Positions 9,608-55,836 of a DNA stretch of 64,000 nt are shown piece after piece. The DNA is taken from contig NZ_FPIY01000003.1 in assembly GCF_900119145.1 (NCBI RefSeq), positions 348,299 to 412,298 on the forward strand, in the 5' to 3' direction. How positions within the stretch are numbered: position 1 is the stretch's first letter; every line of letters begins with the position of its first letter. The translations under genes and the position numbers were made by a program. A model generated the notes under the pieces. The model had not been told where the DNA came from, searched no databases, and saw only the letters and a list, made by a program, of their open reading frames with translations. This stretch comes from Cellulophaga fucicola (GTDB lineage Bacteria; Bacteroidota; Bacteroidia; Flavobacteriales; Flavobacteriaceae).

Positions 9608-10019
9608 TTTTCATTATGAAACAGAATTTAGTCTAGAAGATAATACCAAGTATATCGATTGGATTAATAGGATTATAGCTTCTGAGGAGCATTTAGTAGG
9701 TGATATTAATTACATTTTTTGTGATGATGCTTACCTTTTAAACATCAATCAGCAGTACTTAGATCACGATACCTATACAGATATCATCACTTTTGACTAT
9801 ACAGATGGTAAGCTAATTGGGTCAGATATCTACATTTCAGTAGACAGAGTTAAAGAGAATGCAGTAGATTTTAAGGTAGATTTTAGTCAAGAATTGCTTA
9901 GAGTTATGGCTCACGGCATACTACATTTATGTGGTTTTAAAGATAAATCTACAGAAGAAGCTGCTTTAATGAGAAGTAAAGAAGAAGAAAAAATTAAATT
10001 GTTCCACGTGGAACATTAA
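9600..10019 (+). CDS. ybeY: Endoribonuclease YbeY (16S rRNA maturation)
   Basis: 139 residues, matching the UPF0054/YbeY family, which acts in 16S rRNA 3'-end maturation and ribosome quality control. The metal-binding segment reads HGILHLCGFKD. His105 and His109 fit the H-x3-H part of the family motif, but the position of the third zinc ligand (His in E. coli) is Asp115. The start overlaps the DUF4175 stop (9600-9607). The last codons contain a parS-like palindrome. mnmG follows after 4 nt, so DUF4175-ybeY-mnmG looks like one operon. Confidence 0.93.
   Translation: MIDFHYETEFSLEDNTKYIDWINRIIASEEHLVGDINYIFCDDAYLLNINQQYLDHDTYTDIITFDYTDGKLIGSDIYISVDRVKENAVDFKVDFSQELLRVMAHGILHLCGFKDKSTEEAALMRSKEEEKIKLFHVEH
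10000..10015. other. parS-like 16-bp palindrome, site 1 (inside ybeY 3' end)
   Basis: TGTTCCACGTGGAACA is a perfect palindrome that fits the widely conserved chromosomal parS pattern TGTTNCACGTGNAACA bound by ParB. It overlaps the last coding triplets of ybeY. No parA or parB gene is in the window. The identical 16-mer recurs at 11925-11940. Confidence 0.75.
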
Positions 10020-10023
10020 AGTT

Positions 10024-11892
10024 ATGTTTGATAAAGAATACGATGTTATTGTAGTAGGTGCCGGTCACGCTGGTGCTGAAGCAGCAGCTGCTGCAGCTAA
10101 CCTGGGTTCTAAAACCCTCTTGGTTACTATGAACCTGCAAACTATTGGACAAATGTCCTGTAACCCTGCTATGGGCGGTATTGCTAAAGGGCAAATAGTA
10201 AGAGAAATTGATGCGTTAGGTGGGTATAGTGGAATTATTTCTGATAAATCTGCCATACAATTTAAGATGCTTAACAAGTCTAAAGGACCTGCAATGTGGA
10301 GTCCTAGAACACAAAATGACCGTATGCGTTTTGCTGAAGAATGGCGTTTAGCACTAGAGCGAACACCTAAAGTTGACTTCTATCAAGAGATGGTTTCTGG
10401 CTTAATTATAGAAGGAGAAAAGGTATGCGGAGTTAAAACTTCTTTAGGAATAGAGATAAGATCTAAGTCTGTTGTACTTACAAATGGCACCTTTTTAAAT
10501 GGATTAATTCATATAGGAGAGCGCCAATTAGGAGGTGGTAGAGCAGGTGAAAAAGCAGCTACAGGTATCACAGAACAACTAGTAGATTTAGGTTTTGAAA
10601 GTGGTAGAATGAAGACCGGAACACCTCCTAGAGTAGATGGTAGATCACTAGATTATTCTAAAATGATAGTGCAGCCTGGGGATGAAATTCCAGAGAAATT
10701 TAGCTATACAAATACCAAAGCTTTATCTCATCAAAGAGATTGTCATATGACGCATACGAGTACTTTAGTACACGATTTATTGCGTGAAGGTTTTGATAGA
10801 TCTCCTATGTTTAATGGTAGAATTAAAAGTCTTGGACCAAGATATTGTCCGTCAATTGAGGATAAAATTAATAGGTTTGCAGACAAGGATAAGCACCAAT
10901 TATTTGTTGAGCCAGAGGGGTGGGATACGGTTGAAGTTTATGTAAATGGCTTCTCTACATCGCTACCAGAAGACGTTCAATTTAAGGCTTTACGTTCTGT
11001 AGTTGGGTTCGAAAATGTGAAGTTTTTTAGACCTGGTTATGCTATAGAATACGATTATTTTCCGCCTACACAATTAAAGCATACATTAGAAACTAAGCTT
11101 ATAAATAACTTGTATTTTGCTGGTCAAATTAATGGCACAACTGGGTACGAGGAAGCAGCAAGTCAAGGTCTAATGGCAGGTATAAATGCGCACTTAAAAG
11201 TGAAAGAAGAAAGCCCTTTAATACTAAATAGGGACGAGGCTTACATAGGTGTTTTAATAGATGATTTAATTACAAAAGGTACAGAAGAGCCATACAGAAT
11301 GTTTACTTCTAGAGCAGAATATAGAACATTATTAAGACAAGATAATGCTGATATTAGGCTTACTCCAATGGGCCATAAAATTGGTTTAGCTTCTGATTCT
11401 CGTCTAAAAAGAATGGAAGAAAAGCTTAAAAAATCTGATGCTTTTGTAAACTTTTTTAGAGAGACAAGTGTTGTTCCAGAGGATATAAATCCTATTTTAG
11501 AATCTGTAAATTCGGCTCCTGTTAAACAATCTCACAAGATGTTTAAGAGCTTTTCTAGGCCAAATGTCACTATGGATCACATGCGTAATTTAAAGTCTGT
11601 AGCAGACTTTATAGAGAAGGAAAATATAGATGGAGAGGTAATGGAGCAGACCGAAATTCAGGTTAAATATTCAGGTTACATTGCTAAAGAAAAGAACAAT
11701 GCAGATAAGCTACAGCGCCTAGAGAATATTAAAATTCCAGAGAATTTTGATTATAGATTATTAAAGTCATTGTCTTACGAAGCACGTGAAAAGTTAGAAG
11801 CTATAAGGCCTGTAACTATATCGCAAGCATCTAGAATTAGTGGTGTTTCGCCTAGTGACATTAGTGTGTTACTTGTTTTTATGGGCAGGTAA
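10024..11892 (+). CDS. mnmG: tRNA U34 carboxymethylaminomethyl-modifying enzyme MnmG (GidA)
   Basis: 622 residues. With MnmE it installs the carboxymethylaminomethyl group on uridine 34 of certain tRNAs, using FAD and folate. The N-terminal Rossmann motif VVGAGHAGAEAA, the GidA signature with SCNPAMGGIAKG, GERQLGGGRAGE and the GTPPRVDGRSLD segment are all present. The C-terminal helical domain that binds MnmE is complete (ending SDISVLLVFMGR). The ATG lies 4 nt after the ybeY stop. The gene ends 25 nt before a palindromic terminator that also holds a parS-like site. gidA is classically found near replication origins, which fits the two parS-like sites around it. Confidence 0.97.
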   Translation: MFDKEYDVIVVGAGHAGAEAAAAAANLGSKTLLVTMNLQTIGQMSCNPAMGGIAKGQIVREIDALGGYSGIISDKSAIQFKMLNKSKGPAMWSPRTQNDRMRFAEEWRLALERTPKVDFYQEMVSGLIIEGEKVCGVKTSLGIEIRSKSVVLTNGTFLNGLIHIGERQLGGGRAGEKAATGITEQLVDLGFESGRMKTGTPPRVDGRSLDYSKMIVQPGDEIPEKFSYTNTKALSHQRDCHMTHTSTLVHDLLREGFDRSPMFNGRIKSLGPRYCPSIEDKINRFADKDKHQLFVEPEGWDTVEVYVNGFSTSLPEDVQFKALRSVVGFENVKFFRPGYAIEYDYFPPTQLKHTLETKLINNLYFAGQINGTTGYEEAASQGLMAGINAHLKVKEESPLILNRDEAYIGVLIDDLITKGTEEPYRMFTSRAEYRTLLRQDNADIRLTPMGHKIGLASDSRLKRMEEKLKKSDAFVNFFRETSVVPEDINPILESVNSAPVKQSHKMFKSFSRPNVTMDHMRNLKSVADFIEKENIDGEVMEQTEIQVKYSGYIAKEKNNADKLQRLENIKIPENFDYRLLKSLSYEAREKLEAIRPVTISQASRISGVSPSDISVLLVFMGR

Positions 11893-13231: not shown

Positions 13232-13792
13232 ATGAAAAACGTATTTGTTGTTGTTGTAGTTTTAATTTTTTTTCAATCTTGTATTCCTTTGCGTGTTGCT
13301 CCCAATATTGAAGATTACAAAATTACCAAAGGCAAAACTTTTAAGAGAGGTTTACCCAAACAGCGAGTTTTTGTTTTTGAAGATCCAAAAAACGAAAGTG
13401 AATTTTATAATTATATAAACACAAAGTTTCAGTTATACAATGCAGATGTTTTTGACAATGTTCCTTTTTTTATAAATAACACACCTTATTATTTTTCGTT
13501 TTACGAAGTAGAAAAGAAAGATAAGAGTATAGACATACTTTCTCCTACTCTAGGTGTTCTTGCAAATAGAGCTATAGGTTCAGAGAACAATCCTTCTGAT
13601 TTTTTTAATGAGCAGCCTAAATTGCGTATAGATGGTAATTATTATATTGCTATTAACGCTTATGATGAAAGCGGAAAAGATTGCTTGGATAAAAAATCAC
13701 TTTCACGTCCTTTAGTTTTAAACTATCTTCGTGCTTTAAAGAAAGAATATTTAGCTACGCACAATTACAATGAAGTTTTATTTAAAAACTAA
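13232..13792 (+). CDS. Hypothetical lipoprotein
   Basis: 186 residues with a lipoprotein signal peptide (hydrophobic VVVVVLIFF then QSC, the predicted lipidated Cys at residue 16). I recognise no domain in the mature part, which is rich in aromatic residues and Asn. The tandem repeat ends 61 nt upstream. The 3' end overlaps the methyltransferase gene by 23 nt, so the two are probably co-expressed. Confidence 0.75.
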   Translation: MKNVFVVVVVLIFFQSCIPLRVAPNIEDYKITKGKTFKRGLPKQRVFVFEDPKNESEFYNYINTKFQLYNADVFDNVPFFINNTPYYFSFYEVEKKDKSIDILSPTLGVLANRAIGSENNPSDFFNEQPKLRIDGNYYIAINAYDESGKDCLDKKSLSRPLVLNYLRALKKEYLATHNYNEVLFKN

Positions 13793-14597
13793 AGACCACT
13801 CTGTAACTCAAGAAGAGTTTACATTAAACTATAATGCAGATTTAGATATGTTGGTTACAGATCCGCAACCAAAAAATTTAGGAGTGTATTACGAGAGCGA
13901 TGATTATATCTCTCATACAGATTCTAAAAAAACAGTTGTAGACAAAATGTACCAAACTGTAAAAAATTATAGTTTACAGAAAAAGATACAAATCTTAACC
14001 AAGTTTACAAAAGGAGAAAAAACATTATTAGATGTTGGTGCAGGTACTGGCGACTTTTTAATTACAGCCAAAAATAATAAATGGATTTGCGATGGTGTAG
14101 AGCCAAGTACATCTGCAAGAGAAAAAGCAACACAAAAAGGTTTAGAGCTTTTTAGCAGTTTAGAAACTTTACCAGAAAAAAAATATAACGTAATTACGCT
14201 TTGGCACGTTTTAGAACATTTGCCAAATTTGGATGAACAAATAAAAACACTAGAATCTAAATTAACTGAAGACGGAACTTTAATTATAGCTGTTCCTAAT
14301 TTTAATAGTTACGATGCCAAACACTATAAAGAATTTTGGGCTGCTTATGATGTCCCTAGACATTTGTGGCATTTTTCTAAAACAGCAATAAAAAAGATTT
14401 TTGCAAAACATAATATGAAACTGGTACAAACCAAGCCAATGTTGTTTGATGCATTTTATGTTTCGCTATTATCTGAAAGATACAAAACCGGAAACCAGAA
14501 TATGCTAACAGCATTTTATAGAGGATTACGTTCTAATATATCTGCGATGAAGACTAACGAACATTCTTCTATCATATACATCCTAAAAAAGAGCTAA
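13770..14597 (+). CDS. Class I SAM-dependent methyltransferase
   Basis: 275 residues. The SAM-binding motif I is LLDVGAGTGDFL, with an acidic strand end (GVEPS) as motif II and the usual post-motif WHVLEHLPN. The layout matches Methyltransf_23/UbiG-like enzymes of flavobacteria. The substrate cannot be told from the sequence. It overlaps the preceding lipoprotein gene by 23 nt and ends 23 nt before a hairpin terminator. Confidence 0.88.
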   Translation: MKFYLKTKDHSVTQEEFTLNYNADLDMLVTDPQPKNLGVYYESDDYISHTDSKKTVVDKMYQTVKNYSLQKKIQILTKFTKGEKTLLDVGAGTGDFLITAKNNKWICDGVEPSTSAREKATQKGLELFSSLETLPEKKYNVITLWHVLEHLPNLDEQIKTLESKLTEDGTLIIAVPNFNSYDAKHYKEFWAAYDVPRHLWHFSKTAIKKIFAKHNMKLVQTKPMLFDAFYVSLLSERYKTGNQNMLTAFYRGLRSNISAMKTNEHSSIIYILKKS

Positions 14598-43582: not shown

Positions 43583-44599
43583 ATGGAGTTTAAAGGAAAA
43601 TCATTATTAATTACAGGAGGTACGGGATCTTTAGGCAAAGCACTAACCAGTCATATTTTAAGTAATCATTCGGAGATAAGAAGATTAATTATTTTTTCTC
43701 GCGATGAGCAAAAACAATTCCAAATGGCTCAAGAGTTTCCAGTTTCAAAATTCCCTCAAATTAGGTTTTTTATTGGAGATGTTAGAGATAAAGATAGGTT
43801 AATCAGAGCTTTTAAGGGTGTTGATTATGTTATTCACGCGGCAGCTATGAAACATGTTCATTTAGCTGAATATAACCCTGAAGAATGTATAAAAACTAAT
43901 GTAGGAGGTGCTCAAAATGTGGTAGATGCCTGTTTTGAAACTAATGTAGAAAGAGTTGTGGCCCTATCTACAGATAAAGCTTGTGCTCCAATAAATTTAT
44001 ATGGAGCAACAAAATTAACTTCAGATAAACTCTTTGTTGCAGCAAATAATATTAAAGGAGATAGTCCTATTAGGTTTTCAGTAGTTCGTTATGGGAATGT
44101 AATGGGTTCTAATGGTTCTGTTATTCCTTTTTTTATTAATAAAAAGAATACGGAGGGGAAACTTCCTATTACTGACCCAAAAATGACTCGTTTTAATATT
44201 TCTCTGCAAGGTGGTGTTGATATGGTTATGCATGCGTTGGAAAATGCTTGGGGAGGAGAAATCTTTGTTCCAAAAATACCGTCTTATAGGATTATGGATG
44301 TTGCTGAGGCAATAGGCCCTAGTTGTGAAAAGCCAATAGTTGGTATTAGGCCTGGAGAAAAAGTACATGAAGAAATGATTACATCTTCAGATTCTTTTTA
44401 CACTTACGATTTAGGTAAGTATTATGTTATTATTCCAGCAACCCACAAATGGAAAATAGATGATTTTAAGACAACTTTTAATGCGGAAAAGGTATCTGAG
44501 GGTTTTAGTTATAATTCTGGAGATAATGAAGAGTGGGAGACCATAGAAAGTTTAAGGAAATTAATAATAGAACATGTAGACCCTAATTTTATAGCATAA
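43583..44599 (+). CDS. pseB: UDP-GlcNAc 4,6-dehydratase (inverting), first pseudaminic acid enzyme
   Basis: 338 residues of the extended SDR family. It carries the NADP motif GGTGSLGKAL, HAAAMKHVHLAEYNPEE, STDKACAPINLYGATK (catalytic YxxxK) and VRYGNVMGSNGSVIP. PseB makes UDP-2-acetamido-2,6-dideoxy-L-arabino-hexos-4-ulose. It starts a tightly packed pse run: the next gene begins 1 nt inside its stop. A 76-nt AT-rich gap before it may hold a promoter. Confidence 0.95.
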   Translation: MEFKGKSLLITGGTGSLGKALTSHILSNHSEIRRLIIFSRDEQKQFQMAQEFPVSKFPQIRFFIGDVRDKDRLIRAFKGVDYVIHAAAMKHVHLAEYNPEECIKTNVGGAQNVVDACFETNVERVVALSTDKACAPINLYGATKLTSDKLFVAANNIKGDSPIRFSVVRYGNVMGSNGSVIPFFINKKNTEGKLPITDPKMTRFNISLQGGVDMVMHALENAWGGEIFVPKIPSYRIMDVAEAIGPSCEKPIVGIRPGEKVHEEMITSSDSFYTYDLGKYYVIIPATHKWKIDDFKTTFNAEKVSEGFSYNSGDNEEWETIESLRKLIIEHVDPNFIA

Positions 44600-45744
44600 T
44601 GAATTCTATACCATACGGAAGACAAAACATAGAACAAGATGATATTGATGCTGTCGTTAAAACGCTTACTGCAGATTTTTTAACTCAAGGACCTAAGGTT
44701 AAAGAGTTTGAAGAGAAGTTTGCAGTATATGTTGGTGCTAAGTATTCAGTGGCAGTAAATAATGCTACTTCTGGTTTACATTTAGCAGTTTTAGCTTTAG
44801 GTTTAAAAGAAGGAGAACGTGTTATTACAACACCAATTACTTTTGCAGCATCAGCTAATTGTATTAGATATGCAGGAGGAGAAGTTTGGTTTGCAGATAT
44901 AGACTCAGACTCGTATGTATTATCTTTAGAGAGCACTAAAAAACTTATTGAAAGTAAACCTAAAGGTTTTTTTAAAGGTATTATACCAGTTGATTTTGCA
45001 GGGTTACCTGTAGATTTAGAAGCATTTAAGAAATTAGCTGATGAACATGGTTTATGGATAATTGAAGATGCTTGCCATGCACCAGGAGGATACTTTACAG
45101 ACTCCAAGGGTATAAAACAAATGTGTGGAAACGGTAATTACGCAGATATAGGAATCTTTTCTTTTCACCCTGTAAAACACATTGCTTGTGGTGAAGGTGG
45201 AATGGTAACAACAAATTCTGAAGAAGTATATAAAAAGCTAGCATCACTTAGAACACACGGAATAACCAAAGAAAATATGGCGGAAAACCATGGAGGATGG
45301 TTTTACGAAATGCAAGAATTAGGGTATAATTATAGGCTTACGGATATTCAATCTGCTCTTGGAATTACACAACTTGCTAAGAACAAAGCAGGAGTAGCCA
45401 GAAGAAACGAAATAGCGAATGCATATAAAGAAGCCTTTAAGGGAATAATCAAGTATCAAAACTTGCCTGAAGACGTTTTAAATGCACACCACTTATTTGT
45501 TATTGAAGTTGACGATAGAAAAGGTTTATATAATTACTTGAGAGAGCATAACATTTTTTCTCAAATACATTATATACCTGTACATACGCTGCCTTATTAT
45601 AAGAAAATAGGATACAATGAGGCTAATTTAGATAATTCTGAACATTATTACTCTAAATGTATTAGTTTACCAATGTACCCTAGCTTAAAAGATGAGGAAC
45701 AGGCTTTTGTTATCGAAAAAGTATTAACTTATATTAATGGCTAA
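44599..45744 (+). CDS. pseC: UDP-4-amino-4,6-dideoxy-N-acetyl-beta-L-altrosamine transaminase
   Basis: 381 residues of the DegT/DnrJ/EryC1 aminotransferase family. The PLP lysine is Lys193 in FSFHPVKHIACGEGGM. VNNATSGLHLAVLALGL, TPITFAASANCIRYAGG and VDFAGLPVD fit PseC. It performs the second step of pseudaminic acid synthesis. Its end overlaps pseF by 8 nt. Confidence 0.95.
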   Translation: MNSIPYGRQNIEQDDIDAVVKTLTADFLTQGPKVKEFEEKFAVYVGAKYSVAVNNATSGLHLAVLALGLKEGERVITTPITFAASANCIRYAGGEVWFADIDSDSYVLSLESTKKLIESKPKGFFKGIIPVDFAGLPVDLEAFKKLADEHGLWIIEDACHAPGGYFTDSKGIKQMCGNGNYADIGIFSFHPVKHIACGEGGMVTTNSEEVYKKLASLRTHGITKENMAENHGGWFYEMQELGYNYRLTDIQSALGITQLAKNKAGVARRNEIANAYKEAFKGIIKYQNLPEDVLNAHHLFVIEVDDRKGLYNYLREHNIFSQIHYIPVHTLPYYKKIGYNEANLDNSEHYYSKCISLPMYPSLKDEEQAFVIEKVLTYING

Positions 45745-46426
45745 TTTAGCAATCATACCGGCAAGAGGAGGAAGCAAACGAATTCCAAGAAAGAATATCA
45801 AAGTTTTTTTGGGCAAACCTATTATGGCCTATTCAATAGAAGCCGCGATACAAAGTAATTTGTTTGATGAGGTTATGGTATCTACAGATGATGAGGAAAT
45901 TGCACAAATAGCTAAAAAATATGGAGCAACAGTTCCGTTTTTGAGAAGTAAAAATAATGCTAACGATTTTGCTGTTTTAGCAGATGTAGTTCAAGAAGTT
46001 GTAAGTAAATACAAAGAGAAAAACAAGAAATTTGATAATATCTGCTGTATACTACCAACGGCACCTTTTGTAACTTTCAAAAAAATTAATGAAGCATATA
46101 CCACATTTATAGACAATAATTTTGATAGTGTTTTTCCTGTATTAGAATTTTCTTTTCCAATACAACGTTCTCTAAAAATAGAAGCAGATAAAGTAGCTAT
46201 GGTTTGGAGTGAACACTTAAATACGCGTTCGCAGGATTTAGAGTCTAGATACCACGATTCTGGTCAGTTTTATTGGTTAAAATCTACATCTTTTAATAAT
46301 AATAAAAAGTTATTTACAGATAACTCTGGAGCTATAATTATTTCGGAACTAGAAGCCCAAGATATTGATACTGAAACGGATTGGAAACTAGCAGAAATTA
46401 AATATAAACTCCTACTCAATGACTAA
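45737..46426 (+). CDS. pseF: Pseudaminic acid cytidylyltransferase
   Basis: 229 residues of the CMP-NeuAc synthetase family. It shows the CTP motif IPARGGSKRIPRKN, STDDEEIAQIAKKYGA, and the PseF-like YHDSGQFYWLKS. It makes CMP-pseudaminic acid. It overlaps both neighbours by 8 nt. Confidence 0.94.
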   Translation: MANLAIIPARGGSKRIPRKNIKVFLGKPIMAYSIEAAIQSNLFDEVMVSTDDEEIAQIAKKYGATVPFLRSKNNANDFAVLADVVQEVVSKYKEKNKKFDNICCILPTAPFVTFKKINEAYTTFIDNNFDSVFPVLEFSFPIQRSLKIEADKVAMVWSEHLNTRSQDLESRYHDSGQFYWLKSTSFNNNKKLFTDNSGAIIISELEAQDIDTETDWKLAEIKYKLLLND

Positions 46427-47897
46427 GAAAATAATCTTTAGAGCAGATGGAAGCTCCACAACTGGATTAGGTCATTTATACAGATTATTTAGTCTTGTAG
46501 AAATTGTTAAAGATACTTTTGAGTTTGTTTTTTTAACAAACGAAACTTCAACAGTTTCAGTTATTCCTTCAAATTATAATAAAGAAGTTATACCGGAAAA
46601 CATTAAAACGGAAGATGAACCAAAATGGTTAGCAGTAAATTATTCACCTCAAGAATATATCATAATTGCTGATGGCTATCAATTTATATCGTCTTATCAA
46701 AAAGAAATAAAGCAAAAAGGCTATAGTTTAATTTATATTGATGATTTATCCAAAGAATACATGTACGCAGACGTGGTTATAAATCATTCACCTTATATTC
46801 AGGATATAGACTATGAAAAGGAAGCATACACAAAGCTAGCTTTAGGGACTAAATACGCGTTATTGAGACCGCTTTTTTTAAAAGAAGCTAAAAAGAATAG
46901 AGTTATAAACGTAATTGATAGTGTATTTGTATGTTTTGGCGGTGCAGATCCTTTTAATTTAAGTTTGAAAGCTGTTGAATCGCTTTTAAAAATTTCTAAT
47001 TTTAAAAATATACACGTTGTTTTAGGGGCTGCGTATAAGCATAAAGAAATTTTTTATTTAGAAGAAAAATATTCTGGTAAAATAAAAACATATAGAAATC
47101 TTAGTGAAGAAGATTTAATAAAAACTATACAACTATGTAATTTTGCAATTGCACCTTCTAGTACGATTGTATATGAGTTATGCTCAATAAAGCTGCCAAT
47201 CTTATCTGGGTATTTTGTAGACAATCAGAGGGGTATTTATGACTCATTACTAAAATCAGGCGCTATTTATGGAGGAGGTAGTTTTAATAATTACACTGTT
47301 CAAGACTTTGAAGTTAAAGTTGAGGAAATATTAAAACATAGCGAAATAAGTCACTTTATTAAAAACCAAAAGAGACTCTTTAGCGGAGATAGTAAAAATA
47401 ATTTATTAGAACTATTAAACCCTTTATTGATAACATTTAGATTAGCCAAAGTAGAAGATATGCTAATGGTATATGATTTGTCTAATGATGAAACTGTTAG
47501 GTATTTTTCCTATAATTCAAAACCAATTGTACTTGAAAGTCATAAAAAATGGTTTGAGAGTAAAATAACAGATAAAAATTGTTTGTTTTTAATTGCCTTG
47601 TTTAATAATGAGTCTGCAGGGATTATCCGCTATGAAATGAATGATAAATTTGCAACAGTAGGAGTCTTAATCGCAAAAAAATTTCGAGGAAAAAAAATGG
47701 CTCCTTATTTTTTAAGGGAATCGGCAAAAAAATATTTTGAACAAAATGATCTTCCTATTTTTGCTTATATTAAAGAAGAAAATAAAGCTTCAATTAAATC
47801 ATTTGAGAACTCTGGTTATTCTTTTTATAAAAAGGAAAATGTTAAGGGAGAACCTAGTCTTATATATAAATTAGAAAAAAACAATGTTAAACCATAA
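46419..47897 (+). CDS. Fused UDP-sugar hydrolase PseG and N-acetyltransferase PseH
   Basis: 492 residues. The N-terminal part (about 1-340) is PseG-like: RADGSSTTGLGHLYR with the catalytic His19, then VCFGGADPFNLSLK and APSSTIVYELCSIKLPIL. PseG-type enzymes remove UDP from the diamino sugar. The C-terminal part (about 345-490) is a GNAT acetyltransferase like PseH: FRLAKVEDMLMVYDLSNDE, GVLIAKKFRGKKMA and NKASIKSFENSGYSFYKK. In Campylobacter these are separate proteins; here they form one chain, so two successive steps are physically linked. It overlaps pseF by 8 nt and pseI by 14 nt. Confidence 0.92.
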   Translation: MTKKIIFRADGSSTTGLGHLYRLFSLVEIVKDTFEFVFLTNETSTVSVIPSNYNKEVIPENIKTEDEPKWLAVNYSPQEYIIIADGYQFISSYQKEIKQKGYSLIYIDDLSKEYMYADVVINHSPYIQDIDYEKEAYTKLALGTKYALLRPLFLKEAKKNRVINVIDSVFVCFGGADPFNLSLKAVESLLKISNFKNIHVVLGAAYKHKEIFYLEEKYSGKIKTYRNLSEEDLIKTIQLCNFAIAPSSTIVYELCSIKLPILSGYFVDNQRGIYDSLLKSGAIYGGGSFNNYTVQDFEVKVEEILKHSEISHFIKNQKRLFSGDSKNNLLELLNPLLITFRLAKVEDMLMVYDLSNDETVRYFSYNSKPIVLESHKKWFESKITDKNCLFLIALFNNESAGIIRYEMNDKFATVGVLIAKKFRGKKMAPYFLRESAKKYFEQNDLPIFAYIKEENKASIKSFENSGYSFYKKENVKGEPSLIYKLEKNNVKP

Positions 47898-48897
47898 ATG
47901 TTTTATAATAGCCGAATTATCAGCAAATCATGGCGGATCTTTAGAGATAGCCAAGGAAACCGTAAGAGCGGCTAAGCGTGCCGGTGCTGACGCTATTAAA
48001 TTACAAACGTATACCGCAGATACAATAACACTTAATGTAAGAACAGATGATTTTAAAATTACTCAAGGTACAGCTTGGGATGGCCAATATTTATATGATT
48101 TATATAAAGGCGCTTCTTTGCCATGGAAATGGCATAAGCCATTATATGATTTAGCTAAGGAAGAAGGTCTAATTTGTTTTTCTTCCCCATTTGATAAGAC
48201 TGCAGTAGATTTTTTGGAGGAATTAAATACGCCTATTTATAAAGTAGCTTCCTTTGAAATAACGGATATTCCTTTAATAAGCTATATGGCTTCCAAAGGA
48301 AAACCAATAATAATTTCTACAGGCATAGCTACCATTGAAGATATTGAGTTGGCAATAGAAACATGTATCCTTGCAGGAAATAAGGACATTACTATATTAA
48401 AATGCACATCTGCTTATCCTGCAGCGCCAGAAGATGCCAACCTGTTATCTATTCCTGATATAGCAAAGCGATTTGGAGTGAAAGCTGGGTTGTCCGATCA
48501 TACATTGGGTATTGAAGCGCCTATGATTGCTACAGCATTGGGCGCAAAAGTAATTGAAAAACACTTTATTTTAGATAAAACAATAGGGGGAGCAGATGCT
48601 CACTTTTCCTTAGATGAAAAGGAATTTAAGCAAATGGTAGATGCAGTAAGGCTCACCGAAAAGCTGATGGGTAAAGTAGATTATGAAATGACCGATAAAA
48701 AGAAAAAAAGTAGAGAGTTTTCAAGATCGCTATATGTGTCACAAGATGTAAAAGAAGGAGATGTTATTACGAAGGAGAATATTAGGTCTGTAAGACCAGG
48801 TTATGGTATGCATCCTAAGCATTACAATGAAGTGATTGGTAAAGAATTTACAGGAGATTTTAAGAAGGGAACACCTTTGTCTTGGGAACAATTTTGA
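47884..48897 (+). CDS. pseI: Pseudaminic acid synthase
   Basis: 337 residues of the NeuB family. It condenses the diacetamido-trideoxy-altrose with phosphoenolpyruvate. It shows IAELSANHGGSLEIA, DAIKLQTYTADT, ISTGIAT, CTSAYPA, GLSDHTLG and EKHF. The C-terminal SAF (antifreeze-like) domain is present (FSRSLYVSQDVKEGDVITKE onward). It is the last gene of the compact pse run; a 54-nt gap follows. Confidence 0.95.
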   Translation: MLNHKCFIIAELSANHGGSLEIAKETVRAAKRAGADAIKLQTYTADTITLNVRTDDFKITQGTAWDGQYLYDLYKGASLPWKWHKPLYDLAKEEGLICFSSPFDKTAVDFLEELNTPIYKVASFEITDIPLISYMASKGKPIIISTGIATIEDIELAIETCILAGNKDITILKCTSAYPAAPEDANLLSIPDIAKRFGVKAGLSDHTLGIEAPMIATALGAKVIEKHFILDKTIGGADAHFSLDEKEFKQMVDAVRLTEKLMGKVDYEMTDKKKKSREFSRSLYVSQDVKEGDVITKENIRSVRPGYGMHPKHYNEVIGKEFTGDFKKGTPLSWEQF

Positions 48898-48951
48898 TGT
48901 TTTAGTTAAAACAGGTAATTCGTTGCCTAAAATAATATTAAATTGAAAAAA

Positions 48952-49665
48952 ATGAAAAAAAGTAACATATATGCTATTATACCATCTCGTTCAGGGTCAA
49001 AAGGGTTTAAAGATAAAAATATAAAAGAGTTGGGAGGAAAGCCTCTAATGGCGTATTCTATAGACTTTGCCAAAAAGCTAGGAGTAGATAAAATAATTTG
49101 TTCAACAGACTCCGGTGAGTATGCTAAAATTGCTCAGAAATATGGTGCCGAAGTCCCTTTTTTAAGAAGTTCAAAGGCTTCAGCAGATAATGCTATGGAG
49201 GAGGATATATTAGAAGATTTATATAAATGTTTTGATAGACACGATATGTTATATCCTGATATTATCGTTTGGTTAAGACCCACGTTTGTTTTTAGAGATT
49301 TAGATATTATTAAAAAGGCAATTAGTACATTAATAGAGGAAGAAGAGATTAGTGCGGTAAGAACAATTTGTGAGTCAGAATCAAGATTATACAGATTAAC
49401 TAAGTCTGATAAAATTGAAGCCTGTTTTGAGGACTATGGAAAATCTATGATACGAAGGCAAGATATGGAGTCAAAATTTAAAGTGTTTAGTACAGATGTG
49501 TTTAGAGGGATTCCTAAAAATATATCGGATTCATTTTTAGGAGATAATGTAAAAGGTTTAATTATTCCTAAATTGTGTGGTTTAGATATTGATGATGAGG
49601 ATGATTTTATTATAGTTGAAAGTTTAATTAAAAATAGCAATAATGTCCAAAAGTATATGCACTAG
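48952..49665 (+). CDS. Second CMP-nonulosonate cytidylyltransferase (NeuA-like)
   Basis: 237 residues from the ATG at 48952. CMP-sialic-acid-synthetase family: IIPSRSGSKGFKDKNIKELGGKP, STDSGEYAKIAQKYGAEVPFLR, IIVWLRPTFVFRD. It differs clearly from pseF in sequence, for example in the region that binds the sugar, so it probably activates another acid. It overlaps the phosphatase gene by 23 nt. With the two following genes it forms what looks like a second nonulosonate cassette. Confidence 0.85.
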   Translation: MKKSNIYAIIPSRSGSKGFKDKNIKELGGKPLMAYSIDFAKKLGVDKIICSTDSGEYAKIAQKYGAEVPFLRSSKASADNAMEEDILEDLYKCFDRHDMLYPDIIVWLRPTFVFRDLDIIKKAISTLIEEEEISAVRTICESESRLYRLTKSDKIEACFEDYGKSMIRRQDMESKFKVFSTDVFRGIPKNISDSFLGDNVKGLIIPKLCGLDIDDEDDFIIVESLIKNSNNVQKYMH

Positions 49666-50329
49666 TATTAAAGAATTAATCGAAAATAATCTAGAAGAGA
49701 TAATTTCGCTTAGGTCTCAAAAGACTTTAAAGCCTGATAATAGTTATGTGTCTAAGGGAGATCTACTATGCGAAGAATTAATTAAAAATTTTTTAAAAGA
49801 AAATCACCCTAATATCTTTTTAGTATCAGAAGAAAGCCCTACAGATAATATTGAGAATGTTAAAAAGCCTGAAGTATTAATTTTGGACCCCATAGATGGG
49901 ACAGAAAACTTTATTTCTGGATTAAAAGAATGGGGTGTAGCTCTTTCCTATTATAAGAATGGAAAACACCAAGAATCTTTATTAGCTATGCCTGAATTAA
50001 ACTGTTATTTAAAAACAGGAGATAAAATTGAAAAATTTAATTCAAGGATTTCTGGAATATCATCAAGCCTTACAAAAGAAGATATGCTAAAGTTAGAGCC
50101 TGGTTTTGAATATAGAATAATTGGATGTTGCGTGTATAATATGTATAATGTAGTAATGGGATCATATTATTCATTTGAAAATATAAAAGGAGCATATGTT
50201 TGGGATATAATAGGAGGGTTAAATTTAGCCATTGAGAATGGCCTTAAAATTGTTGTAAATAATAAATCATATTATGGAGAATTACTTGAACCAAATAAAA
50301 AACATACTTTCAGAATTACAAACGAATAA
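49643..50329 (+). CDS. Inositol-monophosphatase-family sugar phosphatase
   Basis: 228 residues of the IMPase/CysQ/FBPase fold. The metal-binding motifs are intact: EES (63-65), LDPIDGTENF (81-90) and the C-terminal GAYVWDIIGGLNLAIENG (Trp187-Asp188). It is slightly shorter than typical IMPases. Its place between a CMP-sugar synthetase and a NeuB-like synthase suggests it removes a phosphate from a nonulosonate-9-phosphate or a related sugar phosphate. That role is inference. Both ends overlap neighbours (23 and 56 nt). Confidence 0.8.
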   Translation: MSKSICTSIKELIENNLEEIISLRSQKTLKPDNSYVSKGDLLCEELIKNFLKENHPNIFLVSEESPTDNIENVKKPEVLILDPIDGTENFISGLKEWGVALSYYKNGKHQESLLAMPELNCYLKTGDKIEKFNSRISGISSSLTKEDMLKLEPGFEYRIIGCCVYNMYNVVMGSYYSFENIKGAYVWDIIGGLNLAIENGLKIVVNNKSYYGELLEPNKKHTFRITNE

Positions 50330-51842
50330 AGTATATATAGTAGGAAAAGGACCAAGTCTGGCTAATATTAACCCAGATAGATTAGTTGATGGTGTTGTGT
50401 TTAATCTTAATGATTCTGAAAGGTTTTATCCTGGTCATTTCTCAATATTACATAGTTTTTGGGCTTTTCAGAGTGTTCAGCAAAATGAATTTAAATCTAA
50501 ATGTTATATTTCAGATAGGAGTTTCCCGGAACATATTAATTCTATAAAACTAGAATACGAACCAGATAACTACGAAAGTTTTAATTCGATAAGTAGTTCG
50601 TTGCTAAGTAAGCCTGTTGTAATTTCTGATTTTTTATTTATAACGGCAATACAGCTGGTATTATATACAGCCAGAACATTGAACATAAAGTTAGATGTTT
50701 ATTTCTTGGGTTTTGATTTTGGTGATGCTAACACTGTTAAAATTGTAGAGGACCACTCAGGGCACTCAAAGGCGTTGGCAGATGCTATTTTACATACACA
50801 GGAAGACTTATTTAAAAGTGTGAAGAGTTATATTGATAAAAATTTTGCGTCTCTAAATGTTATTCATGTTGGAGAAAAAATATATAGCAAAACTTCAGTA
50901 TTTAAATTTAATAAGGAAAGTATAAAAGAAGACTACAAGTATAAAACTAATATAGAGTTGTATGAAGATATAAAATTGCAAATAGCTAACAATATACCCG
51001 TAGTCGTGGCAGAGCTTACGAACAACCATATAGGAGATGAAGAACGTTTAAGAACGATGATACGGTTGTCCAAAGAGCAAGGTGCAGATATGATTAAAGT
51101 ACAGAAAAGGGATGTTAGTACTTTTTACACCAAAGAAGAACTTGAGAGTGATTATAATTCACCGTTTGGTAAGACATTAAAGGATTACAGAGAATCTGTT
51201 GAGCTTACCGACTATTTGTTTGAAGTATTAATAGAAGAATGTAAGTTAAATGAAATATGTTGGTTTACATCAATTCTAGATAAGAATTCATATGATTATA
51301 TTTTAAAATACGATCCTCCGCTTATTAAGCTTCCAAGTACTATTTCTAATCATAGAAATTATTTGAGCTTGGTAGCAGAAACATTTACCGGAGATGTTGT
51401 TGTTTCGACGGGGTTTACAGATAAAGAATATGAGTCATTTGTGTTACAATCTTTTAATAAGAGTAATAACTTATTCCTTTTACAATGCACATCTTCATAT
51501 CCTGCGCCACCAGAATCTTGCAATATAGCGGTTATAAACCACTATAATAATTTAAAAATATCAGATTACGATAATATAATTCCAGGTTACTCAAGCCATG
51601 ATGTAGGACCATTGGCTAGTCAAATGGCTGTTAGCGCAGGAGCGTTAATGTTGGAGAAACATGTTAAATTTGGAAACTTGGATTGGATTCATTTTGATGG
51701 TGTTGCTTTAGATTTGACAAAAGGGGAATTGGCTAATTATGTAAAAGAGATTAAAAAAGCAGTAACTATAAACGGTAGCAAAGACAAAAAGCCTCAAAAA
51801 GCAGAACATCATAAATACAAGATCAATTCAAAGAGTAATTAA
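50274..51842 (+). CDS. Fusion: GT42-like sialyltransferase domain plus NeuB-like synthase domain
   Basis: 522 residues. Residues about 19-215 resemble GT42 sialyltransferases such as Cst-II of Campylobacter: VYIVGKGPSL (20-29), NLND (44-47), YFLGFDFG (143-150) and EDHSGHSK (159-166), which aligns with the Cst-II segment holding its catalytic His. Residues about 240-498 are a NeuB-like barrel: VVAELTNNHIGD, MIKVQ, VVSTG, LQCTSSYPAPPE, GYSSHDVG and EKHV. No SAF domain follows; the tail is a basic, low-complexity stretch. The frame overlaps the phosphatase gene by 56 nt; a TTG at 50286 is another possible start. I infer that the protein both makes and transfers a nonulosonic acid. Confidence 0.75.
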   Translation: MENYLNQIKNILSELQTNKVYIVGKGPSLANINPDRLVDGVVFNLNDSERFYPGHFSILHSFWAFQSVQQNEFKSKCYISDRSFPEHINSIKLEYEPDNYESFNSISSSLLSKPVVISDFLFITAIQLVLYTARTLNIKLDVYFLGFDFGDANTVKIVEDHSGHSKALADAILHTQEDLFKSVKSYIDKNFASLNVIHVGEKIYSKTSVFKFNKESIKEDYKYKTNIELYEDIKLQIANNIPVVVAELTNNHIGDEERLRTMIRLSKEQGADMIKVQKRDVSTFYTKEELESDYNSPFGKTLKDYRESVELTDYLFEVLIEECKLNEICWFTSILDKNSYDYILKYDPPLIKLPSTISNHRNYLSLVAETFTGDVVVSTGFTDKEYESFVLQSFNKSNNLFLLQCTSSYPAPPESCNIAVINHYNNLKISDYDNIIPGYSSHDVGPLASQMAVSAGALMLEKHVKFGNLDWIHFDGVALDLTKGELANYVKEIKKAVTINGSKDKKPQKAEHHKYKINSKSN

Positions 51843-51848
51843 AAGTTA

Positions 51849-53291
51849 ATGAAGAAATTAGCATACCGCTTATGGAATTCTCCAACTATTACAACTTGGG
51901 CTAGTTTAGTGGTTCTTTCTGCAAATACAATTTTTGTATTGCCTTTAGTTTTAACTAAATTTTCTTTAGCGGAGGCCAATATTTGGTTTGTATTTATGAC
52001 TATTTTTAGATTTAAAGACATATTTGACTTTGGGCTAAAAAATAACGTTTCTAGATTGTATTCTTATGCCTGTGGAGGGGTTAAAGATATAAGTTCTATT
52101 GGTAACATAGAAAGTCAAGAAACAAGCAACGAGCCAAACTTTTTATTAATAGCTTCTATTTATAATAAATCGGTAAAGTATTATAGTATAGTCTTTATTT
52201 TAGCAATATTAGTACTAGGTATAATAGGCACAATTAGTTTGTACGGTTTAATTGGAGCTAGAGAAGACAATTGGATAGCCTGGTTAATTTTACTATTAGG
52301 ATCTTGTATTTTTTTATTTGGTAATTTATTTACTTCATACCTTATAGGTATAAATAAAGTGGCATTATTAAAACGTTGGGATACCTTTTTTGGCTTATTA
52401 ACCTCTTTTTCAATAATTTTAGTAATGCTTACAGTTCCTAGCTTATTAAACATAATAATAATAATGAATTTTTGGGTGATTATTAATGTTTTAAGAAATT
52501 ACTATTTAGTAAAAAAAACAAAAAACTCTTTTTTAATTGATTACGATAAGTTTAATAAAAAACATTATTTAGATGTAAGTAAAAGCATCATAGAGCCTTC
52601 ATGGAGAACCTTTGTTGCTGGATTAGCAGGTACGGGAACAAAGTATGGTTTAAATTTAATTATTGCGAATTTAGTGAGCGCAGAAATTTCTGCTTCTTAT
52701 TTATTGGCAGATAGGTTATTAGATCAATTGAAAGAGGTTTCAAGGGCCCCCTTTTATTCTAATATCCCTAGGTTTTCAAAATTAAGAGCTCAGAACAAAA
52801 TATTTCTTTTAGTTAAGGAAGTAAAACAAGCAATGTTATTTTCCTATGGAGTAAATTTTATTGGTATTGTAGGTTTATTGTTTTTTGGAAACTATTTAAT
52901 TTCTCTTATAGGATCAAACGTGACTTTTGTCTCTAATATGATGCTTGTTTGTATGGGATTTTATTTATTTATAGAGAGGTTTACTGCAATGCACTTACAG
53001 TTGTATACCTTTATGAAAAATAGGGTAATTGGTCATATTGGTTTAATTGTAACAGGTATATTGTTATTATTACTTACTTCGGTATTATTTCCTATACTTT
53101 CTATAATGGCAATACCTATTGCAGGAATTTTGTCGTATTTATTTTTTTATTCTTGGTTTGTAGCATTGAAAAACTATAAAATACTTGAAACTAGTTTTGT
53201 TAAATTTGAAAAAAAGTTAATTATTTTATTTAATCTGCTGCTAATTTTATTGTTCATTATTTATGAAATACTTATTCCACATACACAGTAA
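51849..53291 (+). CDS. Wzx-type polysaccharide flippase
   Basis: 480 residues with about 12-14 membrane helices, of the MATE/Wzx-like oligosaccharide flippase superfamily. It would move lipid-linked repeat units across the inner membrane. Family assignment is by topology and overall look (LVVLSANTIFVLPLVLTKF start, LLADRLLDQLKEVSRAPFYSNIPRFS in the middle), as Wzx sequences are variable. It overlaps the next gene by 29 nt. Confidence 0.82.
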   Translation: MKKLAYRLWNSPTITTWASLVVLSANTIFVLPLVLTKFSLAEANIWFVFMTIFRFKDIFDFGLKNNVSRLYSYACGGVKDISSIGNIESQETSNEPNFLLIASIYNKSVKYYSIVFILAILVLGIIGTISLYGLIGAREDNWIAWLILLLGSCIFLFGNLFTSYLIGINKVALLKRWDTFFGLLTSFSIILVMLTVPSLLNIIIIMNFWVIINVLRNYYLVKKTKNSFLIDYDKFNKKHYLDVSKSIIEPSWRTFVAGLAGTGTKYGLNLIIANLVSAEISASYLLADRLLDQLKEVSRAPFYSNIPRFSKLRAQNKIFLLVKEVKQAMLFSYGVNFIGIVGLLFFGNYLISLIGSNVTFVSNMMLVCMGFYLFIERFTAMHLQLYTFMKNRVIGHIGLIVTGILLLLLTSVLFPILSIMAIPIAGILSYLFFYSWFVALKNYKILETSFVKFEKKLIILFNLLLILLFIIYEILIPHTQ

Positions 53292-54330
53292 TATTAATTT
53301 ATTAGTTGCAATTGGTATTGTAGAAAAATGTAACTACCGAAAAGAAGATGTTTTTTTTTTACTAAATAGAGGTATAAAGACAAGTTTTTTGGTTAACACT
53401 ATTGATATCCCTGAAAATATTTACTATCATCCATTTAATACTATAAAAAAGTTAAAAAATTTAAATTTCTTAAAAAATAAAGCTATTCTAGCTGAAATAG
53501 ATTCGATTATAAAATCAGCTACACTAGGAGGTGAATTTATTTATTTTTGTGCAAATAGTAGAGTTCCATTTTATAGAGCTTTTTTTTCTCATAAGAAATG
53601 CAGTGAAGTTCATTATATAGAAGACGGAATGGATGCTTATTTGCCAGCTAAAGAACTAGAGAGTAAGTACCCCAAAAAGATACCAAAACATTTGTTAGTA
53701 ATAGATTTTTTTTTAAAATTTCTACCCTGGTTTTGCAGTAATAGGTTGAGGTATTTAAACATAGACTTTATGGGGAACTTCAAAAACAAAAAATCAGTAG
53801 TATACTGCATAAATAAAAAGGCGTATGATAATCAATCAAATAATAATAAAGTTGTATTAAACATAGACGAGATTTCTTTTTTTAATAAACAGAACTTAAA
53901 GAATGATGTTCTATTTGTTTTTGACGCTGTTGTGGAACAGAAAGTTATAAAGGAGGAAGATTTAAATAAGTTTGTAGATTGGTTTTCTGAAATATATTTC
54001 AAGGGAAAAAATATATCAATAAAGTTTCATCCATTTCAGTCAAAATTAACTCAGCAGCAGATTGTTAAAAAAATAGAAGCGAATGGAACTCATGTAGAAG
54101 TCATTTCTAATGACATTATAATGGAGGTGCTTTTTGTAAAGAAAAAACAACTAATAATTTATGGAATTGGATCTTCTTTATTGGTTTATGGCTCAATGAT
54201 AAATAACCATAAAGTAAAAGTTCTTTACCCATATTTTGAAAAACAATTAGGGGTTTTATCACCTAGGTTAAATACCTGGAATACTATGTTTTTGAATAAT
54301 GACCGTGTAGAATTATTAGAAAAAATATAA
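53263..54330 (+). CDS. Glycosyltransferase with polysialyltransferase-like motifs
   Basis: 355 residues. It carries three motifs known from bacterial sialyl- and polysialyltransferases (GT52/GT38-type): an acidic EDG (120-122 in HYIEDGMDAY), HP (256-257 in IKFHPFQ) and a Ser-Ser motif (304-305 in GIGSSLLVYGS). I therefore infer that it uses a CMP-nonulosonate donor. The overall sequence is divergent and the acceptor unknown. The ATG lies inside the flippase gene (29-nt overlap). Confidence 0.65.
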   Translation: MKYLFHIHSNINLLVAIGIVEKCNYRKEDVFFLLNRGIKTSFLVNTIDIPENIYYHPFNTIKKLKNLNFLKNKAILAEIDSIIKSATLGGEFIYFCANSRVPFYRAFFSHKKCSEVHYIEDGMDAYLPAKELESKYPKKIPKHLLVIDFFLKFLPWFCSNRLRYLNIDFMGNFKNKKSVVYCINKKAYDNQSNNNKVVLNIDEISFFNKQNLKNDVLFVFDAVVEQKVIKEEDLNKFVDWFSEIYFKGKNISIKFHPFQSKLTQQQIVKKIEANGTHVEVISNDIIMEVLFVKKKQLIIYGIGSSLLVYGSMINNHKVKVLYPYFEKQLGVLSPRLNTWNTMFLNNDRVELLEKI

Positions 54331-55554: not shown

Positions 55555-55836
55555 ATGGTTTTTAATTCTTTGGAGTTTTTGCTCTTTTTCCCTATTGTTT
55601 TTGCTCTTTATTATATAATTCCAAATAAGTCATGGAATATATTTTTGTTGCTTTCTAGTTATTATTTTAATAAGTACGGGGTTAAAGTTTTAGACTTAAA
55701 TAAGGCTTATAAAAAATTAGATTTAAAAAAAGAAGATTTTTTAGATTTAATACATGTAAATTGGTTAGGAGCAAACAAAGTATCCATAATGTTTTCTGAA
55801 TGGATGAAGGATCAATATAATATCAAAACACAATGA
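55555..55836 (+). pseudogene. Deletion scar: MBOAT acyltransferase start joined to an SGNH-type protein end
   Basis: 93 codons. The first 38 or so match the N-terminus of MBOAT O-acyltransferases (VFNSLEFLLFFPIVFALYYI then LLLSSYYF). The remainder (about 40-93) looks like the C-terminus of an SGNH/DltD-AlgX-like partner, with DLIHVNWLGANKVSIMFSEWM, where the DxxH pair is typical. These two proteins are normally about 470 and 300 residues and lie next to each other. An in-frame deletion of roughly 2 kb would join them near 55670. It is still open and overlaps wzy by 4 nt, but cannot be a working acyltransferase. Confidence 0.75.

Follow-up and report, generated by a model that had tools for sequence, protein, structure and literature searches.

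A fusion protein joining an N-terminal domain, best labelled as a member of the MptE-like/DUF115-GT42-Maf superfamily, to a NeuB synthase barrel was observed in Cellulophaga fucicola, and this fusion is real and conserved. The gene is located at 50274..51842 on the + strand of the window, which denotes the whole analysed stretch of 64,000 nucleotides (contig NZ_FPIY01000003.1, positions 348,299 to 412,298), and encodes 522 amino acids (aa) from an ATG start in an uninterrupted frame. The N-terminal domain (about residues 1-232) covers 50274..50969 (+), and the NeuB barrel (about residues 241-504, Pfam PF03102), which is without the SAF domain, covers 50994..51785 (+). The fusion gene is the third gene of a putative cassette, in which a gene for a phosphatase of the inositol-monophosphatase family (IMPase) sits between a gene of the cytidine monophosphate (CMP)-sugar synthetase family and the fusion gene. 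Our leading interpretation, held tentatively, is that the three genes act together as a portable cassette for the synthesis and attachment of a nonulosonate, with 2-keto-3-deoxynononic acid (Kdn) or a similar sugar as the most likely product and a housekeeping sugar phosphate as the starting material. The NeuB domain would convert phosphoenolpyruvate and an aldose-6-phosphate, with mannose-6-phosphate (Man-6-P) as the first candidate, to a nonulosonate-9-phosphate, from which the IMPase-family protein would yield the free sugar; the CMP-sugar synthetase would then turn the free nonulosonate into the CMP-sugar, and the N-terminal domain, as a remote relative of the CMP-sialic-acid-using GT42 and Maf proteins, would transfer the sugar to a surface glycan. 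What we infer from the comparisons below is the passage through phosphorylated intermediates, the nature of the sugar, the co-transcription of the three genes and the transferase activity of the N-terminal domain.

Recurrence and spread of the fusion

The Pfam NeuB model matched residues 262-504 of the fusion protein with an E value of 6.3e-38 and 131 bits, against a gathering score of 22.1, and no SAF domain was found in it at E<=1 in the same scan that detected SAF in the PseI protein of the window. The first-pass annotation had described a single protein joining two domains, and the open 522-aa reading frame agrees with this, as it does with the description of the barrel as lacking SAF. The canonical equivalog models TIGR03569 and TIGR03586 gave 116.4 and 110.1 bits, below their cut-offs of 399.65 and 340.25, respectively, and residues ~1-230 were matched by no Pfam or NCBIfam model above cut-off. 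The genome contains two NeuB proteins at E<=0.001, PseI and the fusion, so that another stand-alone NeuB as a partner of the fusion is ruled out.

The fusion was present in one frame in all 19 loci compared (the window, L021-L035 and L051-L053), which were gathered via similarity to the N-terminal domain or to the whole protein and are not fully independent, five being from Enterobacteriaceae and L024-L026 representing three close Bacteroidota relatives. The hosts comprise Bacteroidota, a Balneolales metagenome-assembled genome (MAG), Gammaproteobacteria, including Escherichia coli and Enterobacter capsule loci, and a planctomycete MAG; the search for the same domain pair in other Bacteroidota, proposed at first pass, thus found it there and beyond that phylum. 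At each locus the longest open reading frames (ORFs) were picked first, and some of those around L034 are uncertain. One other of 60 related genomes carries the full-length fusion with 56% identity, on the same contig as L028. A genome contig scan with two short patterns of the N-terminal domain gave 91 pattern matches leading to 12 loci, titled Bacteroidota, Balneolales MAG, Silvania, Halomonas and Pirellulaceae MAG, each with a single ORF of 510-547 aa. Three records were found in the plasmid collection, one of Enterobacter roggenkampii and two of E. coli. One of the two E. coli records (L022, NZ_CP141089.1) is a 4.94-Mb sequence that goes by the name 'plasmid unnamed1' and seems to be a chromosome with the wrong label. 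Searching with the DNA of one E. coli fusion gene gave matches in 4 of the 5426 E. coli genomes, three on plasmids at >=99% and one on the chromosome at 91.7%. Among 395 genomes of the phylum of the window three strong matches were detected, every one in a fused frame. For L034 and L032, the comparison covered 199 genomes of the same phylum and 321 of the same class, respectively, and at E<=1e-5 the starting genome alone matched. Such a rare and scattered occurrence fits what would be expected if the cassette is a mobile one for surface glycans.

The phylogenetic tree placed 13 fusions in one clade with a support of 100/100, in keeping with a fusion that arose once; the tree, like the signature count described below, uses these 13 fused proteins, with L021-L023, L051, L052 and L053 left out. 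An assembly error, a frameshift or a chance joining, the first two of which the first-pass annotation had raised for the joint, was not borne out and has a practically nil probability, being ruled out by the in-frame fusion in 19/19 loci and by this clade. The synthase part alone, compared with 390 Bacteroidota genomes, gave three matches of 303-634 bits and 53-100% identity in frames of 509-531 aa, followed by a match of 107 bits and 30% identity in a 321-aa frame, and the remaining matches listed lie mostly in frames of ~290-350 aa, with a few longer ones up to 657 aa. In the plasmid collection, the synthase part and the N-terminal domain each retrieved the same three records, and the NeuB type of the fusion was found unfused neither there nor in the 390 Bacteroidota genomes. 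NeuB matches in frames of ~600-657 aa were observed in G164, G287 and G424 of the 390-genome search and at G021:C2:141895 of the 60-genome search, and may represent different types of NeuB fusion. A phage origin is rejected, the N-terminal domain being without a match in 50,697 phage records, as is a viral one, the fusion protein of the window being without a confirmed match in viral contigs.

Partner genes, synthase domain and the proposed substrate

The IMPase gene is the strictest genomic partner of the fusion; the first-pass annotation makes no mention of it. It lies directly upstream of the fusion gene on the same strand in 19/19 loci and overlaps it in 14 of them, a count that depends on the chosen start codons (for L053 it was calculated from the gene ends). 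The IMPases of the loci are 40-75% identical to that of the window, and the motifs EE, DPIDGTENF and WD are invariant in the 19 members. In the window, the IMPase gene (cassette gene 2, 49643..50329, +, PF00459 with E 4.6e-16) shares 56 bp with the fusion gene, and its start at 49643 overlaps the CMP-transferase gene, which ends at 49665. The latter (cassette gene 1, 48943..49665, +) encodes a PseF-like member of the CMP-sugar synthetase family (CTP_transf_3, PF02348 with E 2.4e-20) that scored 109.2 bits with the NCBIfam PseF model, under the equivalog cut-off of 205.7, and its position bears out the earlier placing of a CMP-activation gene two genes upstream of the fusion. A CMP-transferase gene is nearby in 17/19 loci, downstream in L035 and L052. 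The CMP-transferases of the loci fall into dissimilar groups, with identities to that of the window down to 17%, which indicates that the CMP-synthetase has been exchanged and the IMPase has not. At L027 (5719-7277), two different CMP-transferase-family genes stand in tandem ahead of the IMPase-fusion pair, and at L022 of E. coli KE47 a hexapeptide-type transferase gene (13435-14319) is inserted between the CMP-transferase and IMPase genes, which may lead to an acetylated sugar.

Precursor genes are the usual means of recognising a nonulosonate pathway. Clear matches to the pseudaminic acid (Pse) pathway were obtained at the window and L030 alone among the 19 loci, and weak PseB-like matches elsewhere, where scanned, correspond to gmd at L027, a dTDP-glucose dehydratase at L051 and an unassigned dehydratase at L033. 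The annotated E. coli and Enterobacter loci contain capsule export genes and rhamnose genes, and no nonulosonate precursor genes are listed in them, the plasmid annotation being incomplete. The aldose may therefore come from central metabolism, and the combination of no visible precursor gene with a constant phosphatase suggests a phosphorylated route. As the cassette is apparently without precursor genes of its own, the loci that carry it, among them a few capsule loci of E. coli and Enterobacter, some of which are plasmid-borne, are annotated only as 'N-acetylneuraminate synthase family protein'.

The synthase domain is conserved in the 13 aligned members around E247, N251-H252, K275-Q277, K352-S355, S441-D443 and E461-H463, and the motifs E..NH, K.Q, IK.PST, SSHD and EKH, which we take to be the catalytic-type motifs of NeuB, are invariant or nearly so. 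The top-scoring unfused relatives in the 60 genomes, L003-L006, have ~30% identity to it and none of them contains SAF according to Pfam. Bacteroidota often encode synthases that stand alone in frames of ~290-340 aa; these were judged SAF-less by their length, with L003-L006 scanned. L003, L004 and L006 adjoin a gene with cytidylyltransferase and HAD parts, and such a two-domain gene beside a synthase is a layout of the Kdn route, on which the putative Kdn typing of L003-L006 is based. Seven positions (R279, P297, T301, R306, T382, F394 and W471) are common to 13/13 fused proteins and 4/4 of L003-L006 and occur in <=1 of nine synthases of PseI, NeuB and legionaminic acid (Leg) types, against two positions favouring PseI and two favouring the NeuB/Leg types in the same count. 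R279 and R306 may contact a phosphate, and Kdn or a related sugar is the probable product.

Several observations weigh against this assignment. L005 adjoins a cytidylyltransferase gene without a HAD part. The first signature count omitted the tree members L014 and L016-L020, of which L014 goes against it when checked: this SAF-bearing synthase has R279, P297, T301 and R306 together with three further fusion-shared positions, and by sharing four of the seven it indicates that these positions are not exclusive to SAF-less or phosphate-using enzymes. The mean identities of the fused set to the three groups (27.3, 26.8 and 25.1%) hardly differ, and the unrooted tree, which carries a long-branch warning, does not pair the fused clade with L003-L006 and attaches it where these four part from the 15 other proteins. 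By sequence, the closest solved structure is PseI, with the SAF-less 6ncs far behind. Among the loci, no CMP-transferase gene was seen at L033 and L034, and L029 and L031 show weak Epimerase_2 matches; NeuC gave no NCBIfam match at E<=0.01 in these two, and NeuC-, Leg- and GNE-like genes were not searched in all loci.

An alternative is that the NeuB domain uses an unphosphorylated sugar, like PseI and NeuB, with the IMPase acting elsewhere, for instance on a precursor phosphate. In its favour, PseI is the nearest solved structure not only by sequence but also by fold (Foldseek of the full fusion model, 8h2c, E 1.1e-15), and the residues taken as diagnostic are not exclusive, as L014 demonstrates. 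However, the constant IMPase partner, the absence of SAF and the shared positions (seven versus two and two) speak for a phosphorylated substrate, and we regard the use of a free sugar as unlikely.

Placement and possible activity of the N-terminal domain

The better-supported label for the N-terminal domain, as judged by profile and fold comparisons, is membership in the superfamily that holds the MptE-like/DUF115, GT42 and Maf proteins, and not that of a demonstrated GT42 enzyme. The Pfam MptE-like model (PF01973) matched 5/13 N-terminal domains at E<=1, the best with 8.6e-4, and that of the window gave E 0.066 and 13.4 bits, below the cut-off of 34.6. Comparison by hhalign with six MptE-like proteins (alignment A5) reached a probability of 95% over 174 columns, and the smaller N-terminal domain alignment A4 reached 94% over 36 columns, against 0.4% and 0.2% for two unrelated control alignments. 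The A5 proteins were drawn from 12 places, from which three fusions and three sequences that were not MptE-like by eye were dropped. In turn, the MptE-like profile retrieved from the PDB the GT42 structures 2drj (1.7e-6) and 2p2v (4.4e-4), MptE 8sd5 (0.0068) and 5mu5 (0.04), the last of which we take to be a Maf protein. The structure model of the domain (mean predicted local distance difference test score, pLDDT, 77.6; predicted template-modelling score, pTM, 0.81) gave 17 Foldseek matches in BFVD at E<=1e-3. Two of these carry the name MptE-like and one DUF4214, and the others are unnamed or uncharacterized; the best (E 2e-7) is uncharacterized, MptE-like proteins occupy ranks 7, 16 and 28, and a DUF115 protein occupies rank 19 (E 1.4e-3). 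A MptE-like protein encoded downstream of the cassette at L053 (2949-3752; 54.9 bits versus the Pfam cut-off of 34.6) is a free-standing relative of the domain, and a 226-aa protein at L033 (7139-7819) appears by eye to be a superfamily member, with no Pfam match at E<=0.1.

Nineteen positions are invariant among the 19 members (G24, K25, G26, N46, D47, S48, E49, W63, Y78, P97, A125, G146, F147, D148, F149, E177, H198, G200 and S205), and this set looks like an active site, but not like that of Cst-II. The domain carries GKG where GT42 and most of the MptE-like sequences compared carry GNG, and it has NxNDSE and HVGxKxYS-like motifs of its own.

The transferase reading has its own counterevidence. 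The A5 proteins had been recovered as weak matches to the family profile of the N-terminal domain, so that the 95% of hhalign is not fully independent. The Foldseek check proposed at first pass, which gave the MptE-like matches in BFVD, found nothing in the PDB at E<=1e-3 and no GT42 among the 50 best matches, these having low template-modelling (TM) scores and being mostly Rossmann-like, with the human sialyltransferase 6apj at rank 45 (E 0.2). Searched directly, the A4 and A6 profiles hit GT42 no better than E 1.5 and 1.1, respectively. The His residue of the HSK motif is poorly kept, with HSK in 1/19 members, His in that column in 7/19 and no His in the whole stretch in 5/19. In addition, a second transferase candidate is present at four loci, encoded by a PF07388 gene in the window and L027 and by a homologue of the window gene in L028 and L030. 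The window gene specifies a polysialyltransferase-like protein (53263..54330, +, PF07388 with E 2.5e-11), which competes with the N-terminal domain as the putative nonulosonate transferase. No clear nonulosonate transferase emerged when ten neighbouring ORFs were scanned with Pfam.

One alternative to transfer is that the N-terminal domain is a kinase- or pyrophosphokinase-like enzyme, as MptE, which makes the sugar phosphate for the NeuB domain, so that consecutive steps are joined. In animals, N-acetylmannosamine (ManNAc) kinase and the 9-phosphate synthase likewise carry out consecutive steps. This reading accounts for the fusion more simply than the joining of a first step to a last one, and it accords with the named relatives, which by family scan and fold are MptE-like, with the invariant K25, D47, E49, D148 and E177, and with the constant IMPase partner. 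It is nevertheless rather unlikely, since the MptE-like profile ranks the GT42 sialyltransferases ahead of MptE 8sd5 and no indication was seen that a free sugar is supplied. Improbable to a similar degree is a non-catalytic domain binding a nucleotide or CMP-sugar, as an oligomerisation or feedback element that replaces the lost SAF: SAF is indeed absent from the fusion and the GT42-type His region is unconserved, but the invariant positions (including K25, N46, D47, E49, D148, E177 and H198) are active-site-like, and the stand-alone Bacteroidota synthases of ~290-340 aa manage without such a domain.

The first-pass annotation had read the protein as a Cst-II-type GT42 sialyltransferase fused to NeuB, on account of a GxGPSL, NxND, LGFDF and H-x2-HSK pattern. 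All four elements are present in this one protein (GKGPSL at residues 24-29, NLND from 44, LGFDF from 145 and HSGHSK from 161), although HSK is no feature of the family, and the A4 profile, searched against the PDB, returned six sequences under E 10, all of them alpha-2,3/8-sialyltransferases. These matches, however, span ~24 residues with E values of 1.5-5.5, and the larger A6 profile lists ribonuclease Z among its matches beside GT42. The CST-I model (PF06002) gave no match at E<=1 in the fusion protein of the window or in the 13 N-terminal domains. CST-I relatives were sought in 198 genomes from the phylum of the window, in four of the locus genomes and in 321 from the same class as L032; one sub-cut-off fragment was obtained, the control genomes also being without a match, and with that fragment alone no direct GT42 alignment was made. 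PHROGs and NCBIfam scans of the domain yielded nothing usable except a PHROG alpha-2,3-sialyltransferase at E 0.066. Given the absent family match and the unconserved motif, plain GT42 membership is thus not supported, a Cst-II-type enzyme is quite improbable, and what survives of the earlier reading of this domain is a distant relation to GT42.

Under the preferred reading of a synthase joined to a putative transferase, one polypeptide would combine the first committed and the last step and, with a fixed phosphatase and an interchangeable CMP-synthetase, would constitute a four-activity sialylation cassette moved between phyla, with the N-terminal domain as a new glycosyltransferase family beside GT42 and Maf; this wider proposal is plausible but, if anything, slightly more tentative than the cassette itself. 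The steps of the NeuB and N-terminal domains would be two reactions apart, so joining them may keep a complex assembled or simply set the stoichiometry of the two. Both parent kinds of protein are already known; no description of the pairing of the synthase with this domain, of its IMPase partner or of its spread was found in the literature, as covered by titles, with most subscription papers outside the scope. If the proposal is true, an IMPase gene beside a SAF-less NeuB fusion of 510-540 aa would be a signature pointing to a Kdn-like sugar in surface glycans, the domain may supply a new transferase family, and the question arises why a synthase and a transferase two reactions apart are locked in one chain.

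Neighbouring genes and comparison with known systems

Upstream of the cassette, the window carries a separate pseudaminic acid set on the + strand (43583..48897, NCBIfam) with PseB, PseC, PseF, a PseG-PseH fusion and PseI. The scores above cut-off were 501.6 bits for PseB, 456.5 for PseC, 309.5 for PseF, 172.2 for PseG and 507.1 for PseI (47884-48897). PseG and a PseH-like acetyltransferase are contained in one 492-aa protein (46419-47897), in which the PseH part, with 28.8 bits, is below cut-off. Directly 3' of the fusion lies a Wzx-like flippase gene (51849..53291, +, NCBIfam WZX_like with E 2.5e-40, under cut-off), and a flippase homologue directly downstream of the fusion was also observed in L028 and L030. 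A 93-aa ORF at 55555-55836 resembles by eye a MBOAT acyltransferase at its start and the SGNH-type partner of such an enzyme at its end, which suggests an internally deleted remnant; it has no Pfam match at E<=0.01. At L024, the gene after the fusion (9662-10969) has a sub-cut-off match to the BNR repeat (E 9e-6), a repeat that occurs in sialidases.

With the PseI and NeuB/Leg synthases the fusion shares the barrel fold and the catalytic-type motifs, whereas the PseI of the window has SAF and the nine synthases compared are mostly without the seven positions. The N-terminal domain resembles the MptE-like/DUF115 proteins, among which we count the Maf flagellin nonulosonate transferases, in fold and profile, but it remains under the cut-off of that family and differs in the motifs described above. 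Its likeness to GT42, represented by structures of Cst-I and Cst-II, is a remote superfamily relation through the intermediate MptE-like profile; unlike GT42, it has no match to the family model, does not conserve HSK and is joined to a synthase.

The Kdn-9-phosphate synthase systems of the B. thetaiotaomicron BT1714 type and of P. parvum have, like the present cassette, a SAF-less NeuB barrel with phosphatase and CMP-transferase partners, and the seven positions are shared with L003-L006, putative Kdn synthases by their gene layout; in contrast, the fusion adds the N-terminal domain, and its partner phosphatase is of the IMPase family and theirs of the HAD family. Man-6-P was the sole substrate converted among seven sugars by the Kdn-9-phosphate synthetase of P. 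parvum, and it is likewise a substrate of the enzyme from B. thetaiotaomicron (PMC6200933). The S. marcescens KL1 and KL2 loci are likewise comparable, for Kdn is made there with a capsule-locus neuA and a NeuB bearing an extra COG1082 domain, which makes Kdn and a little N-acetylneuraminic acid (PMC9000132), and they offer by analogy an earlier example of a compact Kdn pathway encoded in a capsule locus.

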